DNA of 52,553 bases from Triparma columacea. Taxonomy: Eukaryota; Sar; Bolidophyceae; Parmales; Triparmaceae. Shown here piece after piece: positions 12,930-26,116 of this stretch. The notes under the pieces were generated by a model. It made no database searches and was not told where the DNA came from. It saw only the letters and a list, made by a program, of their open reading frames with translations. Where the stretch lies: contig BRYA01000382.1 of NCBI GenBank assembly GCA_030267965.1, forward strand, positions 1 through 52,553, read 5' to 3'. The position numbers and the translations under genes are program-made. Position 1 is the stretch's first letter. Each line of letters begins with the position of its first letter.

Positions 12930-15900
12930 ATGGTCTTCTGCTCATCATTTTTTCCTGGTCATAGGGATTCTCTACGTCCTACGGATCTCATACGTAGCTT
13001 ATCTCCTATGATGGCATCAAATATGTCCACAAATAGTCCTACTCCCTCATCTCCTTCATCTCCTTCATCTCCCTCATCATATTCTCTACCCCTCCCTCCA
13101 TCATTTCTCGTTCCTCCTTATCTTCCTCCTTCATCAATAACAACATCAGCACAATATCGTCACATACTATTAATCTTACCACTAATAGCATCATCACCAT
13201 ATCCACCAATACCATCATTAATGTTATCATACATAATCAATCTCCCAAACCTAGCCGATGAAGAGGAAAGGATATTACAGATTAAGGCACTTGACTTATA
13301 CGCTAGACTAATACATAGGAAAGGGGACGTGTTTAGGATTGACGATATACACAAGCGCTATTATACGTCACCAACTGAGGTAAGAAAGAGAGACTAAACA
13401 AAGACAAGGAGAGGAGAAGACGATGTAGAAAGGAGATGAACATTTTGGACACAGGCTATTGCGCGCAGGCTGAGGATTGGATAGTGAGATAGTGTGACTA
13501 CACATGACAATGACTACGACCATGACTACTACCACGACCACTCCCACACCACTACCACTACCACGACCACTTCCACCACCACAAACATACACCAAACACC
13601 AACCTAACTAATAACCTCCCCCCACCACGCCTTCCCTCCTCCCTCCCAACCTCCCCCCCAAACAGTTGAATAAAGTCCTCGAAACCCTCCGTACCCTAAA
13701 CCTCCTCCATCCTCTCCCCTCCTCATTATACATCAACCTAACAAAAAAATCCTCTCGTATATTAACCACCCCCGAGCTCTCAAGGCTGCGATCACACTTA
13801 CGCCTACCAGCAATGAATAAGGATAAAAGGTCAATAGAAAACCTCCTGAAAACACAGTCAACATTCACCAATAAATCCATATCAATCTCTACATTCATTG
13901 ATAACATAACAGGTGGGATTGTTAAGGTTAAAGGGAAAGGTTATATATGGGCGTTGTTAAGGGTTTTATGTATCGCTAATAACCCAGGTGGTCTACGTGA
14001 AGGTGCTTGGTTTAAAATCGGACTTTGGAATAATAACAAGCAAGGGTCCAGGGGGGGTGGAGAATCGGGTGTTGAGGGTACGAATGATGTACCACTTATG
14101 GGCATGATGGAGATATTTCAAAAGATTAAAAGGAGGGAGAAATGGGTAACACCACACAACGACAAGCTGTTCTTTGGGAGTAAGATGGAATTCAGAAAAT
14201 GGAATACACTTGCAGATATTCGTTGGGGTATAGATACGTGTTTACGGAACCGTGATGAGTTAGCGAGTAGGTTAAGAACGTATAAAAAATCTAACCCAGG
14301 TAGTACAGTAGGTTCTGTACGTTCTGTTGATGATTCGGTGGATTTAGTAAAAGAGAACCTCCTCCCACCTCTCCAACCTGATTTACTAACCTCCAATGGT
14401 AGACATCTTATAGTAACATCATTACTACAAGGTACCCCATCGTCTAACATACACGATGTACTTAACAGTGTAGAGTGTATACTTAAAAAATACTTCCAAG
14501 AAGGCGACGAATTTAAAGACGATAACGAAAGGTGGATTGTCGTTGCCGGTATCGTATGCTCGGCTACTAGGAAATTCGTAACGAGAAGGAAAGAGGACGA
14601 GGTTAAAGTTATTAAAATTAGAGCGTTCGATTCTGTTGCGACTGCTTCTTTGATAGCGTATGACTCTACGACGGTTATGGAACGTAGAGGGTACCATGAT
14701 TTAGCTGCTTATATACTCGGTGGTATAGTTGAGGATGGTGGGGGGGGAATGAAAAGGAGGACGGTTGGGAAGGTCTGCGAGAGATTCTTGGTTGACTGGA
14801 AACACGATTATAATAAAAGAGGCAAGGAGGGAAAGGAAAGAGGGAAGGAAAGGGGTATACTAGAGGAGGGGAATGAGGGACAAGGTGAGAAGGAGTATGA
14901 AAGAAAGAGGAGGAAAAAGTCAAAGTGACGATGATTGGTTTTAACTCACACGAACGTAAATAATACACTAACACATACATCCTACCCTAACAAACGCAAA
15001 GAATACGACCACTCGGTCTTGTCTCTAGATGCTTGTCCCCCTCCCACCTTCAAAGTCCTTACCTACACCTTCCAATCAGTCCAAGCTAATCTCGTAAACC
15101 TCCTCACGACCCTTAGACCAGATTCTAAACCCGCACTACCGTACTCATCGTACTTAACACTAACATCACGCTTGAAAATACCAACGGAAAGTAACGAGGA
15201 GAGTATGCACTTGGGAATCGATGCGGAATACAATGTTAAAACCGACTACTGTACTGCTAACGCTATTAGAAAGACTAACTGCGTAGAAAACGGTTTCGAA
15301 ACAACCGGACAGCCAACTGTGAATTATTCGGGTGATGTTATTATGAACGATGTAGATTGCAACAAAGGTAAAAGTACCTTCGTCGTCCGTTCATCCGATT
15401 CCTCCTCTTCTTCCCATCCCTATCTTCGTGGTACAGTTGAGAATCTCGCATTATCTGAGCATAGTTTAGGACACGTCGGTACCTTAGGTTCAAATTGGTT
15501 CGGTTGGCACGATGAGGGTATGTTTGTTAAACGTTTATTCCGTCTCATCGTTAAGAAGATTGTTCCAGGTATGACTACCTTGACACCATGGACGTACGAG
15601 ACTTTGGAACTTAACGACGATACTGGGGGAGGGGGGGGTATGGAAGAGGAGATTGAAATTATAAACGAACTCAATACACCAGAGTCTGTTATCGACTACG
15701 TGGACGCACTCGTCCGGGATTTCGGCACGGATAATGACTACGATAACATCCGTACCCTCTCCATGTTAGCCTCCGGTATGGGTGGCTCGGGTTTGGCTTC
15801 TGTTATTCGTGCCCTGGCGTACGACCTTAGGCATTACGGTGCGGGCATGCCTGACTTGACGTTGGTTAGAGTTAGCTATGAAGGGGAGGAGGGTATGGGT

Positions 15901-17772
15901 GGGGTTGATCTGGGGAGGTGGATAGGGGAGGAGTTTGGGGAGGTTAGGAGAGGGGAGAGGAATTTTATTAGGAATAAGGGGATGATTAGGGATAAGGATG
16001 AGGGGAACTTACTGGAAATTGAAGGTGAGGGGGGGGGGGAGAGGAGGAGGAGGAAGACGAGGAGGAGGAGGAAGGTGGTGGAGGAGGAGGGGGGGGAAGG
16101 AGTTTTAGGGGATGATAAGGTGGAGGTTAAAGAGAAGGAGAAGGAGATAGAGAAGGTGGGGAAAGAGGGTAAGGATGTTGAGAGGTTGGTGGGAGGGACT
16201 GACGCCTCGAAAGCAGTCCCCGTCGCTGCAACGGCGATGTCCACGCCCCCCCCTACTCCACCCCGCGTACCCCAACCATTGGATTTCTCGCCGCTAAGGC
16301 CGAAGCAATCGTTCCTTGGCTTCACGTCGGTTAAGGGGAAGAAGAAGACGCCGAGGGTAACGAATGGGAGCATCAGCTGCGAGATCCCTGAGGGGGGCTG
16401 GGAGACCGGGCCCAAAGGCCGGAAGGAGGAAAGGGTGCTGGTGTACAAGCATGATTGGGACGCCTTGGATCTAACGACGGGTGAAACGGTCAGAGTTGTA
16501 GGGCTGGACTTTGACGATACGCTGGTAGTAAGCAACAGAGGGAGCACTGATTGGAAGCTTAGGTTCCCACATGTTATTGAGGCATTGAGGAGGATCGTCA
16601 AGTTGGGGGGAGGGGAAAGAGAGGGTGAGGAGGAAGTGCAGGGTGAGGGGGAAATTCACGGTGAGGGTGGAGTGGAGGGCGAGAGGGAGGCGAGGAATGA
16701 CGAAGGGAGCAAATGCGAAGGAGGCGCAACTTCATCCGAGTCCAGCGAATCGCCCGCCCGCAAAGAGAGAGTGGTCCTAGCAATCGTGACAAATGAGTCC
16801 CTCGGGAAGTTCAAGAAGGAGCCAGCGCTCCGCAAGGCGCTCCACACGAAGGCCGCCAAGGTGGTCGAGTTCTGCAAGAAGCTCGACCTCCCCGTCATCA
16901 CCGTTATGCCGACCGCCAAGGACGGGTACAGGAAGGGGAATGGGAGGGGGGCCTGGGACATGCTCACGAGAGTGATTGAAGAAGATAAGGGGGCCAAGGT
17001 CAACTTGGAGACTAGTTGCTTTGTCGGGGATGCAGGTGGGGGCATGATTGGAGTTTATGATAGGGAGTTCGCCAAAGCTGCGGGGATTAAGTATTTTAGG
17101 GAGAAGGAGTTTTTTGGCTGGAAGGGGGAGGGGAGTAGGGATGGGGGCGGGGGTGGGACTGGGGAGAGTGGAGGGGGGGAAGAAGGGATAGGCGAGGAGG
17201 AAGAGGAGGAAGTGACTGAAAAGCTGAAGCTGGAATTCGAGGGTAGGAAGGTCAAGGTGGAGGTTTTGTTTAGTGAGGTCAAGAGCGCGAACGACACTTT
17301 AGACAAGAGGCAGGAGACGTGGCTCAACATTTTGGAGAGCGCGGGGATTATGACGAGAGTTTGTAAGTTCAAGGAGAGTTTGAAGAAGAAGGAGAAAAAG
17401 CGGGCGTCGCCCACCGGCGAAGAGAAAAAGGCTGGTGGGAAAAAGAAGAAGAAGGGGGAGAAGAAGGGCGGTAGCGTCGAGAAGAAATTCGAGGGTGTCG
17501 AAGATGGGGAGTATGGGGTGAGGAGGATTACTCAGACAAAGAGTGTCGAGCTTGAAGACGACGGAAAGGTTGTTGAGAGTGTTGGGGTCGAAAAGGTGGC
17601 GATGAAGACGTACAAGGATGGAAAAGAGGCTAACAGAGAATTTGAGCTGGAAGTAAAGAATGCAAAACGCATGAAGGAGAAGAATAGGAGAGGGAAGAGC
17701 GAGAGCTCAATCGTGGTGGAGCTGTGGACGGGGAAGGACCGTTTGCTAAGGGAGGAATTGGGGAGAAAGTAA
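12930..17772 (+). CDS. FAN1-type structure-specific nuclease with a nested polynucleotide 3'-phosphatase domain
   Basis: Exons 12930-13379, 13666-14884 and 15029-17772 (phases 0 and 1) give 1,470 residues. FAN1 is a nuclear 5'-flap endonuclease/exonuclease of interstrand crosslink and repeat-instability repair. Visible parts: a SAP-like helix pair (TTPELSRLRSHLRLP, about 183-215); the helical FAN1 middle (ending RRTVGKVCERFLVDWKHDYN); VRR-NUC first half with TVENLALSEH (about 693) and GWHDEG (about 715); catalytic GMPDL (Asp 832). The rest of the VRR-NUC core, LFSEVKSANDTLDKRQETWL with Glu and Lys 1306/1308, appears about 475 residues later. In between sits a PNKP-type phosphatase (motifs DFDDTL 1050, IVTNE 1143, CFVGDAGG 1220). 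No UBZ zinc finger and no PNKP kinase domain were seen. The tail is Lys-rich. The true start may be the ATG at 13008. Confidence 0.85.
16205..17130 (+). other. PNKP-like 3'-phosphatase domain inserted in the FAN1 VRR-NUC domain
   Basis: HAD-fold polynucleotide 3'-phosphatase signature within the same reading frame as FAN1. Motif I is LDFDDTLVVS (both Asp present), followed by DWKLRFPHVIEAL as in PNKP (W/P-V). Motif II is AIVTNESLGKFKKEP. A Lys/Trp region (YRKGNGRGAWDML) parallels the KP..G.W segment of PNKP. Motif IV is CFVGDAGG followed by a conserved D and EFAKAAGIKYF and EFFGW. A low-complexity Glu/Gly loop separates motifs I and II. PNKP-type enzymes remove 3'-phosphates to restore 3'-OH ends; activity here is inferred from the retained motifs. 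Confidence 0.85.
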
Positions 17773-17897: not shown

Positions 17898-18838
17898 TTA
17901 GAAGAGGTGGTAGTGGGCGGTGAAGGGCGCCATGACATCTCCATCGTAGGGGATGGCAATGCCGTTGAGGGCGGGCACAGATCCGGGGACCTTGTCGGCT
18001 GCCAGGAATCCCATGATTCCAATCTGGGCGAGGCGACCGTTGTTGAGCTCGGTGATGAGGCCCTTCTCCTTCTTCTCGGCGGACCTGTTCTTGGAGAGTC
18101 CGAAGGGGTCGTAGAGGTTGAAAGGGACAGGGTGGACGGTCTGCCTGAAGAGATCGAAGGAAGGGAACACTCCGGGCTGCGAGGAAGGAGAGATGGGAGG
18201 GAGGGGGGGATGGGATGCGTTAGCGAACGTGTCGCAAAAGTAAAATTCGTTTTTGTATTTTTCCATCCTCACCTTTCCTCCGCGCATGTAGTGCTTGACT
18301 CCGTCGGCCCCGGCCTGCTCTCCCCAGAGCTCGAGGAAGGAGATGACAATGAGGATCTGCCACTTGGCAGCCTCAGGGATGGCGTCCCACTGGGCCTCAG
18401 GGGAGAGGTCAGTGGAGGGGAAGGATTCGCCAGCGGTGGTCATGGGCCAAGGCCAGTGAACGTTGGACTGGACGCAGTATCCAACGAAGGCAAACATGGC
18501 AACGCGGCCGTGCTTGATCTCAGCGTGGCGGAGAAAACCGATCGTGGCCTCGTTGGAGTCTAGGGGGGAGGAAGGCGACGGGTAGTTAGAGGGATAGGAG
18601 GGAAGATCGGTCATTCCAACCTTTCTTATATATATTTGTTGTTTATGTTCTCACCTCCCCAGAACTCAGCATCACTAAGGGAGAGGGGGTCGTAAAACTT
18701 CACGATGGGGTTCGACTTCTCAGCAATAGTCTTGAGGTCGGCCTTGGTCTCATGGAGAGCAGTGGAGGCCTTGGGGGCGGCGTTGGGAGCGAACGCAGAG
18801 GCAGCAGCGAGGAGAGTGGAGAAAAGAGCGAGCTTCAT
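17898..18838 (-). CDS. Fucoxanthin chlorophyll a/c-binding protein (FCP/LHC family)
   Basis: Three exons: 18838-18655, 18559-18273, 18176-17898; 249 residues; phases 1 and 0. A light-harvesting antenna protein of the thylakoid membrane. The precursor begins MKLALFSTLLAAASAFAP: a signal peptide followed by the ASAFAP motif, with Phe after the cleavage site, which directs import into plastids with four membranes. The mature part shows helix 1 EIKHGRVAMFAFVGY (chlorophyll-ligating Glu/His and Arg of the E..HGR pair), helix 2 with LIVISFLELWGEQ, and helix 3 ELNNGRLAQIGIMGFLAAD, the matching E..NGR motif. Length is normal for an FCP. The start at 18838 was preferred to the ATG at 18889, which would add 17 residues before the signal peptide. 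It is tail-to-tail with FAN1, 125 bases apart. The exact Lhc subgroup is not decided here. Confidence 0.95.
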
Positions 18839-23029: not shown

Positions 23030-26000
23030 TTGAAGTGGCGCGTTGAAGGAATGTTTGAGTATTCCCCCTTTCAAATTCTGGCCTTCGTCGGACTCAATCA
23101 GATTCAAGGAAGAAAATTTGGCCCGTTCTCCCTCATGATGAGGATGGGAGATTCACTTTCAATATTGGGGTTTTCGCTTACGGTACTAGCTTATATCCTT
23201 CCCTCCCACTTTGTTGCGACGTTTACGCATCAGATCAGCAATTTCCACCGCCCCTCCCTGCCCCCCCCTTCTTCTCCAACACAATTCTCCCTCCCTCGTT
23301 CTCCATCACACGTTTCGTCTTCCACTCGTATGAGTTACAAAGGAGATGACTTCCTTGACTTCGTCAGGTCAACCTGCGGTGACGATGTGAGAATAAATTC
23401 ACCTGATCTTTCCGCTTATGCTGCTAATGCTGCTGTTAAGACACTAGTGTGGGAGGGACGCGCAACCAAGCGCGTCTATGTTACCGTGCTTCGTCAGGAT
23501 TCTCAAGTAGACTTGCGTAGCGTTAAGGAAGCTGTCGGAGAGAGTGTTTCCATGGTGAAGGTGGAAAGTTTGAGGGATGTGACCATGTGCGGCAGGGGCT
23601 TCGTGCCGCCGTGCGTAGGGAGATGGATGGAAGGGAGTAGAACGATCGTTGATGAGGGAGTGGGGGAATGGGCGGGCAGTAGATTAGAGACTGGAGAATA
23701 CATCGAGTATGACCTCTCCTCTTACCCCCGAACCTCCATAGCCGTGGGTTCCCCTACACACACATCCACCATCACCTCTACTCTATTCTCTGACGCCCGC
23801 AAAAAACAGCCCGCCCCTTACGATCCTACATACCCCCCCAAGACCACCAAAATGTACGAGAAGCCAGTTGATTACGTGCTCCACCACCCGAACCACGTGT
23901 TGTTTGAGGAGGCGTTCAAGGAGCTTGAGGGAATGACGAGGGAGGAAATCAAAGAGAAGTTAACATACGCAGACAAATGGGGCAAAAACTCCCTCCACCG
24001 AATCTGCTGGAAGGGTTCAGTGCCTGTCGTAACCTCCCTCCTCGCCCTCCTTCGTGATCGCTCCCTTCTCCCCCTCCTCGATACCATCTCCACCGGTCGC
24101 GGTAACTTTGGGAAGACGTGCATATTCTATGCGCTCACACAGGGAAGGGAGGAGGTTGTGGAAATGCTGGTTAGGGAGGGTGTGAAAGTAGAAGTGGTCA
24201 ATAACAAGGGACAAACCCCGAGAAGCTTGGCGGTTGGGCATGTCAGCGCAGAGCTGACGAACCTGATCGAATCCAAGGAACCCAAATCCCCCTCCTCCTG
24301 GCTAAATTACCGTCTCACCAACCCTGACCTCGAACGCACATACGGCGACCTCGACCCACGGTTCGGCCTCGATTCTCTTAATGACCCCGGCGGCAAGCTG
24401 CGTGAGGTAGTGGCGAAGGCGGAGAGGCAGGGAAGGAAGATAAGGGTTGTCAAACAGACAACTTGGGAGAGCAGGAAAACTTGCAATATGAAGGTCGTTG
24501 AGGGAAGCAACGTGAAGTGGTGGGGTGGAGGCGACGCCAAGAGGGAGAAGGTCGTGAACAGGAATGTGGGGGTCAGGAATAAGGGCAGGGCGAAAAAAGA
24601 GGACGCAAAAGTGCACAAGCATCGTAACCAAAATGTACCTGAGTACGAATTCGCTTCGCTCCATCGTCTGGGTTACAAATCTGTCGTCATCGACACTCTC
24701 TCTGGTTTGATGAAGTTGGTTCCCCCCACCGTCCCTTCAGGTGGTAACATCATTGTAGGGGTAGACTGCGAGTGGAGACCGGCCTGGGAGAAAGGCGTAG
24801 AGAACCCTGTCGCCGTCCTGCAGATCGCGCACGAAGGGACTGCGTACGTGCTGGATATGACGAAGCTTGGAAAAGAGGGGCCTGAGAGTAAGCACGTGTC
24901 TGAGGTTCTTTGCGGGGTTTTCAAGAACCCTAAAACCGTCATAGTGGGCTTTGGGGTGCAGGGGGATTTGCTCAAGCTAGCGGCCTCGTTCCCTCATATG
25001 AGTTGCTTCGCCTCTGTTTACAACGTTGTCGATCTCGCCTCTCTCGGCCGTGTCGCCAACTCCAACCTCAGTCCTTCTGAGATGACGAGCCTCTCGAAGA
25101 CCACCCAAGTCGAGCTGAAGATGAACCTCAACAAGGGGCAGCAGATGAGCGTGTGGGACAGGAGACCCCTCACTGAGGCGCAGGTGGAGTACGCGGCGAT
25201 CGACGCTGCGGTCTGCGTGAGACTGTTCGAGAGCATGAAAGAGAAGATAGAGGGCTTCGACTCATTAGTAGAAGAGCCAAGAGGAGGATGGCTGAAGTCG
25301 AATTTCAGATTTACCCCCCTCGGCAGTCCCTCTGCCTCCCCTTCCACCCCTTCTCAGCCTAATTTCCTCTGCCCCACCGCTTGGGGTTGGAAGACTCCCT
25401 GTGGCACCACGAAGACTAGCGTGGGCATGCTGATGGCTACGCAGCAGTGGGACTCGAGAATCTTGGATATCCCAGCCGCGCCCAGCTTTGACCCGGAGAT
25501 ATACAAGGTCAGGGAGATGCGTGAGGCCGACAGGATACGTCAGAGGGAGCATAGTAAAAAGGTAGCCCTCGAGAGGAAGGCCCGTCGCGAGAGGGTCGAG
25601 AAGGAAGGGCGGAGCGGTAAGAGGGTCCAACTTAAGGACGTTTTCGTAAGCGAGAGGCACGGCATCAAGGTAGGAGGACCGTGCGGGATGACGAAGAGGG
25701 ACGTTATCGAAAACTTGGTCAACCCAGAAGGGGAGTACGGGAATTGCATCGCTTACAGTTTAAAGAGCGGTATCATTCAGCTTGCAGATGCGACGCTGCT
25801 ATTCGTTAACCTAGGTGGTACGAGGAATAAGAAGTATAGGAATGACATCATGGAGGGTGGGAGGAAGATTACTTTCGACTGGGGTAAGGGTGGTGACGGC
25901 TCACATAAGAAGATCCTCTTCTTTGCAAGGTTTGAGAAGGAGGATTTCCTCTACCTCGGAAAAGCATGCGAGTGCGGGGTAAGGCTTGGGGCGGGGGGTA

Positions 26001-26116
26001 AGGAGACGGTGGTTTTGGAGCTTGAGAAATTTGACAAGATGGAAGAAACTGATAGGGTTAGGTGGGAACAGATTTGTCAAATGCACCAAGAGCATATGGG
26101 CGGAGGGGAGGTGTAG
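23030..26116 (+). CDS. DEDDy 3'-5' exonuclease with YbaK-like and ankyrin domains
   Basis: Uninterrupted 1,028-codon frame. After the N-terminus, residues about 101-205 resemble a YbaK/prolyl-tRNA deacylase-like fold (VSMVKVESLRDVTMCGRGFV). Two ankyrin-like repeats follow (NSLHRICWKGSVPVVTSLL; GKTCIFYALTQGREEVVEML), then a basic linker. The WRN/RNase D-type exonuclease is clear: Exo I VDCEW (D579, E581), Exo II FGVQGDL (D646), Exo III YAAID (Y721, D725), the DEDDy set. The C-terminus has a possible PUA-like or DUF3427-like fold (RNDIMEGGRKITFDWGKG, FFARFEKEDFLYLGKA). The ATG at 23330 (MSYKGDDFL) starts the conserved part and may be the real start. The upstream frame has a hydrophobic stretch (LSILGFSLTVLAYILPSHF) and a Ser/Pro-rich region that could be an organelle presequence. 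Substrate (tRNA, structured RNA or DNA) cannot be told. Confidence 0.8.
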   Translation: MKWRVEGMFEYSPFQILAFVGLNQIQGRKFGPFSLMMRMGDSLSILGFSLTVLAYILPSHFVATFTHQISNFHRPSLPPPSSPTQFSLPRSPSHVSSSTRMSYKGDDFLDFVRSTCGDDVRINSPDLSAYAANAAVKTLVWEGRATKRVYVTVLRQDSQVDLRSVKEAVGESVSMVKVESLRDVTMCGRGFVPPCVGRWMEGSRTIVDEGVGEWAGSRLETGEYIEYDLSSYPRTSIAVGSPTHTSTITSTLFSDARKKQPAPYDPTYPPKTTKMYEKPVDYVLHHPNHVLFEEAFKELEGMTREEIKEKLTYADKWGKNSLHRICWKGSVPVVTSLLALLRDRSLLPLLDTISTGRGNFGKTCIFYALTQGREEVVEMLVREGVKVEVVNNKGQTPRSLAVGHVSAELTNLIESKEPKSPSSWLNYRLTNPDLERTYGDLDPRFGLDSLNDPGGKLREVVAKAERQGRKIRVVKQTTWESRKTCNMKVVEGSNVKWWGGGDAKREKVVNRNVGVRNKGRAKKEDAKVHKHRNQNVPEYEFASLHRLGYKSVVIDTLSGLMKLVPPTVPSGGNIIVGVDCEWRPAWEKGVENPVAVLQIAHEGTAYVLDMTKLGKEGPESKHVSEVLCGVFKNPKTVIVGFGVQGDLLKLAASFPHMSCFASVYNVVDLASLGRVANSNLSPSEMTSLSKTTQVELKMNLNKGQQMSVWDRRPLTEAQVEYAAIDAAVCVRLFESMKEKIEGFDSLVEEPRGGWLKSNFRFTPLGSPSASPSTPSQPNFLCPTAWGWKTPCGTTKTSVGMLMATQQWDSRILDIPAAPSFDPEIYKVREMREADRIRQREHSKKVALERKARRERVEKEGRSGKRVQLKDVFVSERHGIKVGGPCGMTKRDVIENLVNPEGEYGNCIAYSLKSGIIQLADATLLFVNLGGTRNKKYRNDIMEGGRKITFDWGKGGDGSHKKILFFARFEKEDFLYLGKACECGVRLGAGGKETVVLELEKFDKMEETDRVRWEQICQMHQEHMGGGEV

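Follow-up and report, generated by a model that had tools for sequence, protein, structure and literature searches.

Does one gene of Triparma columacea encode a FAN1-type nuclease that carries a second enzyme, a polynucleotide 3'-phosphatase, inside its own catalytic domain? The gene lies at 12930-17772 on the forward strand of contig BRYA01000382.1, all 52,553 nucleotides of which make up the window analysed here. An earlier reading of the letters alone (the original prediction) had placed the catalytic PD of FAN1 at about 15850 and its ExK motif at about 17275, in one frame and with a HAD-type phosphatase signature between them. We consider it likely that the gene specifies a single FAN1-type protein in which a PNK3P-type 3'-phosphatase is inserted in the PD-ExK hairpin of the VRR-NUC fold (between strands beta2 and beta3), an arrangement that would link flap cutting with 3'-end cleaning.

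The first step is the order of the motifs, and all were found where the original prediction had put them. GMPDL (15844-15858) and EVKSAND (17275-17295) share a frame, the phosphatase motifs fall between them, and no stop intervenes under either available gene model, that is, with or without a 192-nt segment annotated as an intron in the deposited protein. The elements of the nested region, all on the plus strand, are as follows.

15502-15519, plus strand: nuclease motif GWHDEG with the catalytic E (kept in 40/40 aligned sequences)
15778-15873, plus strand: first VRR_NUC piece, profile positions 41-72, with GMPDL near its end (22.5 bits, by itself under the 23.8 cut-off)
15850-15855, plus strand: catalytic PD (P and D kept in 40/40)
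15874-16437, plus strand: N-linker, low complexity and charged, holding a GAG repeat at 16041-16102
16025-16216, plus strand: the 192-nt, frame-keeping GT-AG segment, annotated as an intron in the predicted model of the deposited protein
16495-17115, plus strand: nested PNK3P-type HAD 3'-phosphatase domain (PF08645)
16504-16524, plus strand: HAD motif I, LDFDDTL (equivalents of D171 and D173)
16612-16761, plus strand: low-complexity loop within the phosphatase, from the motif I helix to motif II
16780-16797, plus strand: HAD motif II, AIVTNE (equivalents of T217 and N218)
16927-16956, plus strand: HAD motif III, YRKGNGRGAW (equivalents of R259 and K260)
17017-17043, plus strand: HAD motif IV, CFVGDAGGG (equivalent of D289)
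17134-17262, plus strand: C-linker, Gly/Glu-rich, in open frame
17260-17367, plus strand: second VRR_NUC piece, profile positions 78-113 (24.9 bits)
17275-17283, plus strand: catalytic ExK, here EVK (E and K kept in 40/40)
17311-17313, plus strand: conserved Q (kept in 40/40)

Across 15874-17262 the coding frame holds no stop, where the two remaining forward frames have 18 and 39; within the 188-codon N-linker the figures are 0 against 6 and 18, and not one of 2000 first-order Markov resamples left that linker open. On their own, the shorter stretches fall short of significance (0.383 for the 54-codon internal loop, 0.177 for the 43-codon C-linker). PDL and ExK are 472 residues apart, or 408 if the 16025-16216 intron is real; leaving it out keeps the frame, shortens the N-linker and does not alter the nesting. 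The nuclease core picks up again in frame past the phosphatase, which rules out two adjacent genes, as first argued. Short tandem repeats with units of 3, 18 and 19 bp lie at 16041-16102, 16622-16666 and 17120-17173, one in each linker or loop around or in the phosphatase, which suggests linker growth by repeat expansion; the low-complexity linkers are probably flexible.

Both families named at the outset were recovered above their Pfam cut-offs. VRR_NUC (PF08774) matches the protein at E 1.3e-10 (41.8 bits, cut-off 23.8), split in two pieces, and PNK3P (PF08645) at E 2.9e-13 (56 bits, cut-off 22); the precomputed domains on the database record of the deposited protein likewise include both. 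When the nuclease pieces are joined without the insert they score 58.2 bits as a single match spanning profile positions 41-113, against 22.2 and 28.2 separately. Without its internal low-complexity loop the phosphatase scores 65.8 bits over positions 2-161 of the 161 in the profile, and its stretch from motif I through motif IV aligns with PNKP (1yj5) at E 1.8e-5. According to the portion of PMC7746193 available to us, PNKP residues D171, D173, T217, N218, Q219, M220, R259, K260, D289 and F306 are predicted to bind phosphate, DNA or Mg; by our own mapping, D171, D173, T217, N218, R259, K260 and D289 all have equivalents here.

On the nuclease side, the catalytic E, the PD, the ExK and the conserved Q of FAN1 are invariant in an alignment of 40 rows (38 bacterial sequences, Podospora FAN1 and this protein), and the domain is of FAN1 type rather than an isolated VRR-NUC. 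Its catalytic D aligns with the D of the human FAN1 PDL, taken by our mapping as D960 of the catalytically dead mutant. In a comparison with PDB sequences both pieces match human FAN1 in the right order (chain positions 553-592 and 603-634), where the gap between them is 10 residues; in a two-sequence comparison with Podospora FAN1 they match better, at E 2e-7 and 3e-8.

How unusual the spacing is can be judged from a control scan of genome contigs with the degenerate pattern EVKGP..D.L...Q..W, which gave at least 120 loci (three checked with Pfam and found to be VRR_NUC, the remainder taken on the pattern alone). A PDL lies no more than 120 residues upstream in 119 of the 120 listed, with 11-25 residues between PDL and E; the remaining locus has no PDL within 120 residues, and a bigger insertion there would escape the scan. 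The 38 bacterial rows, which also served for the modelling, were picked at under 62% mutual identity from the 100 of these 120 loci that have at least 450 residues, a PDL and a consistent translation. Their PDL-to-ExK spacing is 11-19 residues, and that of Podospora FAN1 is 26.

Both halves of the nuclease fold as one VRR-NUC domain in an AlphaFold2 model, as anticipated for PD and ExK. On this basis the nuclease site is expected to be undisturbed, and the phosphatase to hang from the nuclease domain. These results support what was first read in three respects: the nesting, the assignment of both families and the single nuclease fold.

A number of points weigh on the other side. The alignment behind the AlphaFold2 model consisted of FAN1 relatives, a choice that itself favours joint folding of the two halves; the predicted local distance difference test score (pLDDT) is below 50 for most of the insert, and the phosphatase modelled alone reaches a mean pLDDT of 45 with no usable fold match. 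The PDB sequence matches to human FAN1 are weak (whole-sequence E 0.18), and a FAN1 profile set against the exon 3 frame recovered the ExK half only (39 columns, probability 66, E 5.6e-5). R955, of the 5'-phosphate pocket in human FAN1, is G here and R in 32 of the 40 aligned rows; with R952 kept and K986 replaced by R (in the human FAN1 alignment that puts D960 at the D of PDL), the pocket would be at best partly kept. Within the phosphatase, an E stands opposite PNKP Q219, M220 is unmatched (PMC7746193, as above), and neither the proline of RKP nor the R of GDAAGR is kept; the score of 66.6 bits misses the 107.65-bit cut-off of the NCBIfam DNA-3'-Pase equivalog TIGR01664, and the domain is therefore not filed under it. 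The nested architecture is known from one species, in a predicted gene, and a stand-alone PNK3P in the same genome means that the fusion is not the sole source of the activity.

We nevertheless give an even chance to a bifunctional enzyme that combines flap cutting with restoration of the neighbouring 3'-OH in one bound complex, and that would represent an unreported branch of FAN1 in which crosslink and flap repair is tied to 3'-end cleaning. Both activities are predicted from active-site residues, and we infer that the gene is expressed and that its two activities are coupled in a biological role. In such a scheme, the FAN1 part would grip a flap or nick at its 5'-phosphate end, then cut or resect; the tethered phosphatase might strip the 3'-phosphate from the neighbouring upstream strand end before synthesis and ligation, leaving a 3'-OH for polymerase and ligase.

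The gene model itself departs from the original prediction in one respect: the proposed '1,470-residue translation' in one unbroken frame does not hold, as two introns are needed, at about 13381-13675 and 14885-15001, and with them the product has 1476 residues.

12930-13380, plus strand: exon 1 (predicted, with an uncertain start ATG), carrying the N-terminus and an HTH-like part of FAN1, without counterpart in the deposited protein
13381-13675, plus strand: intron 1 (inferred, GT-AG), with a frame-keeping choice of AG
13676-14884, plus strand: exon 2, covering the SAP-like part and the putative TPR part of FAN1 (by FAN1 profile alignment; no Pfam family above cut-off)
14885-15001, plus strand: intron 2 (GT-AG), with the same junction in the deposited protein
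15002-17772, plus strand: exon 3, encoding the VRR-NUC nuclease, the PNK3P nested in it and a C-terminal lysine-rich tail, in open frame to the stop at 17770-17772

Two AGs occur in the stretch scanned for the end of intron 1, of which 13675 is in frame and 13665 is not; intron 2 takes out two in-frame stops within 14926-14934. The deposited protein (P0001), 'hypothetical protein TrCOL_g12353 [Triparma columacea]', named Fanconi-associated nuclease in UniRef, begins at 14677 and is missing everything upstream of that position. Because this record is from T. columacea, a prokaryotic source for the window was rejected. A FAN1 profile of 29 sequences (Podospora FAN1, P0002, and 28 bacterial) aligns by hhalign with model residues 119-259 (E 2.7e-5, probability 74) and stays colinear where exon 1 meets exon 2, which argues that TrCOL_g12353 is probably truncated, with FAN1-like HTH/SAP sequence at 12930-14676, upstream of its start. 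The Pfam FAN1_HTH match on the model is weak (E 0.13, 12.6 bits, cut-off 27), and the Pfam scan of this protein gave no match to FAN1_TPR. The GC content of third codon positions (GC3), taken in 210-nt steps over 13666-17769, is 0.26-0.56 before 15766 and 0.57-0.84 after it, through the ExK half; the rise starts shortly before the insert, and one low step is mostly intron 2.

Parmales, the order of Triparma, is the sister group of the diatoms according to the portion of PMC10328945 seen by us, which gives the T. columacea assembly as 43.0 Mb in 1,858 scaffolds; its main text nowhere uses the term 'DNA repair'. The genome copy searched here comprises 37.85 Mb in 789 contigs and may be incomplete against the published assembly. 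Searches of it, whose counts are lower bounds, located VRR_NUC in this gene alone and PNK3P in the nested copy and in one stand-alone gene, on the minus strand of contig C716 (L003 1483-2934; 483 amino acids, no kinase domain, canonical motifs, 128.8 bits). The two phosphatases share 43% identity over 69 residues; on this comparison the nested one is a second phosphatase that has diverged, rather than a recent duplicate of the stand-alone gene.

The alternative that survives best, although we hold it to be unlikely, is that the nested phosphatase is no longer catalytic and tunes the FAN1 nuclease, either by binding DNA ends or as a spacer. Its motif changes (TNQ to TNE, the lost proline of RKP, GDAAGR to GDAGGG) and its score under the equivalog cut-off would fit such a role, and the stand-alone gene could supply the 3'-phosphatase activity; yet the aspartate pair of motif I, the T-N, the R-K and the aspartate of motif IV are all kept.

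Rather less probable again is alternative splicing, in which the phosphatase segment is optional and FAN1 is made with and without it. The gene models of T. columacea were predicted by BRAKER2 from protein hints, without RNA-seq, according to the same portion of PMC10328945. Among the GT..AG pairs in the scanned range, 348 of 805 would drop the phosphatase in frame, but counts of frame-keeping pairs are largely at chance level. Two of the 35 donors scanned (16025 and 16169) have an extended consensus, and the deposited model uses 16025 while keeping the phosphatase. The most pyrimidine-rich of the 24 AGs at 17110-17275, that at 17273 (TTTAG, 0.5), is out of frame with both donors (1249 and 1105 nt), and the others have a pyrimidine fraction of at most 0.4, a weak criterion given that this fraction averages 0.41 ahead of AGs throughout the window and that the intron acceptors here reach only 0.5-0.55. 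Weakest of all, an artefact of the assembly or of the gene model (a false join of two loci, or a same-strand phosphatase gene inside a FAN1 intron) would suit a nested gene seen in one species and on one contig and the GC3 shift along it, but is most improbable with 188 linker codons open, an unspliced phosphatase product that would run into the ExK half with no stop before 17770, and an ExK half that is conserved.

Elsewhere in the window, a chlorophyll a/b-binding (Chloroa_b-bind) gene at 17898-18614 on the minus strand is arranged tail to tail with the nuclease gene at a distance of about 125 bp. A 1028-residue open reading frame at 23030-26113 on the plus strand unites tRNA_edit (residues 132-208), ankyrin repeats (322-404) and the 3'-5' exonuclease DNA_pol_A_exo1 (576-741); these domains are not usually combined, and either a second fusion or an effect of the gene model may lie behind it. 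The contig end (1-1000) is subtelomere-like: it is C-rich (GC skew -0.89), and a tandem repeat of about 116 bp occupies 108-570.

To return to the nested FAN1-phosphatase, both domains are known already, and the nesting of one in the other is what is new. To our knowledge, FAN1 processing and 3'-end repair are otherwise carried out by separate proteins. The claim that no FAN1 with this insertion had been described agrees with our search of the open-access literature, where we found no discussion of a FAN1 with a nested PNK3P or PNKP phosphatase (most subscription journals lie outside it), but not for the databases, where a record with both domains had been deposited. If our reading is correct, a PD-(D/E)XK nuclease can accommodate an entire enzyme in the turn that connects its two catalytic strands, and FAN1 processing would be physically coupled with 3'-end repair; the protein would be a natural example of joined repair enzymes, and through it one could test directly whether blocked 3' ends are common on FAN1 substrates.

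Set against known systems, the nested domain has the HAD motifs I-IV and active-site residues of the PNKP phosphatase domain (PF08645). It differs from PNKP in being embedded in a nuclease, diverged, under the TIGR01664 cut-off and, by Pfam, free of the 5'-kinase domain (matches on the deposited protein at E up to 1 are PNK3P and VRR_NUC only). The stand-alone PNK3P of the same genome belongs to the same family, but has canonical motifs and no nuclease fusion. The Pfam scan of this protein reported no UBZ zinc finger, a difference from FAN1 of human and Pseudomonas aeruginosa, and the R955 of the human 5'-phosphate pocket has become G. In the relatives examined, 11-26 residues separate PDL from ExK, whereas the 472 residues here hold a phosphatase. 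A parallel is the helical insertion between beta1 and beta2 of FAN1, described in the portion of PMC4103454 at hand, which likewise sits inside the VRR-NUC fold and leaves its core intact; that insertion amounts to two helices, whereas here it is the turn between the PD and ExK strands that takes up a whole enzyme domain.

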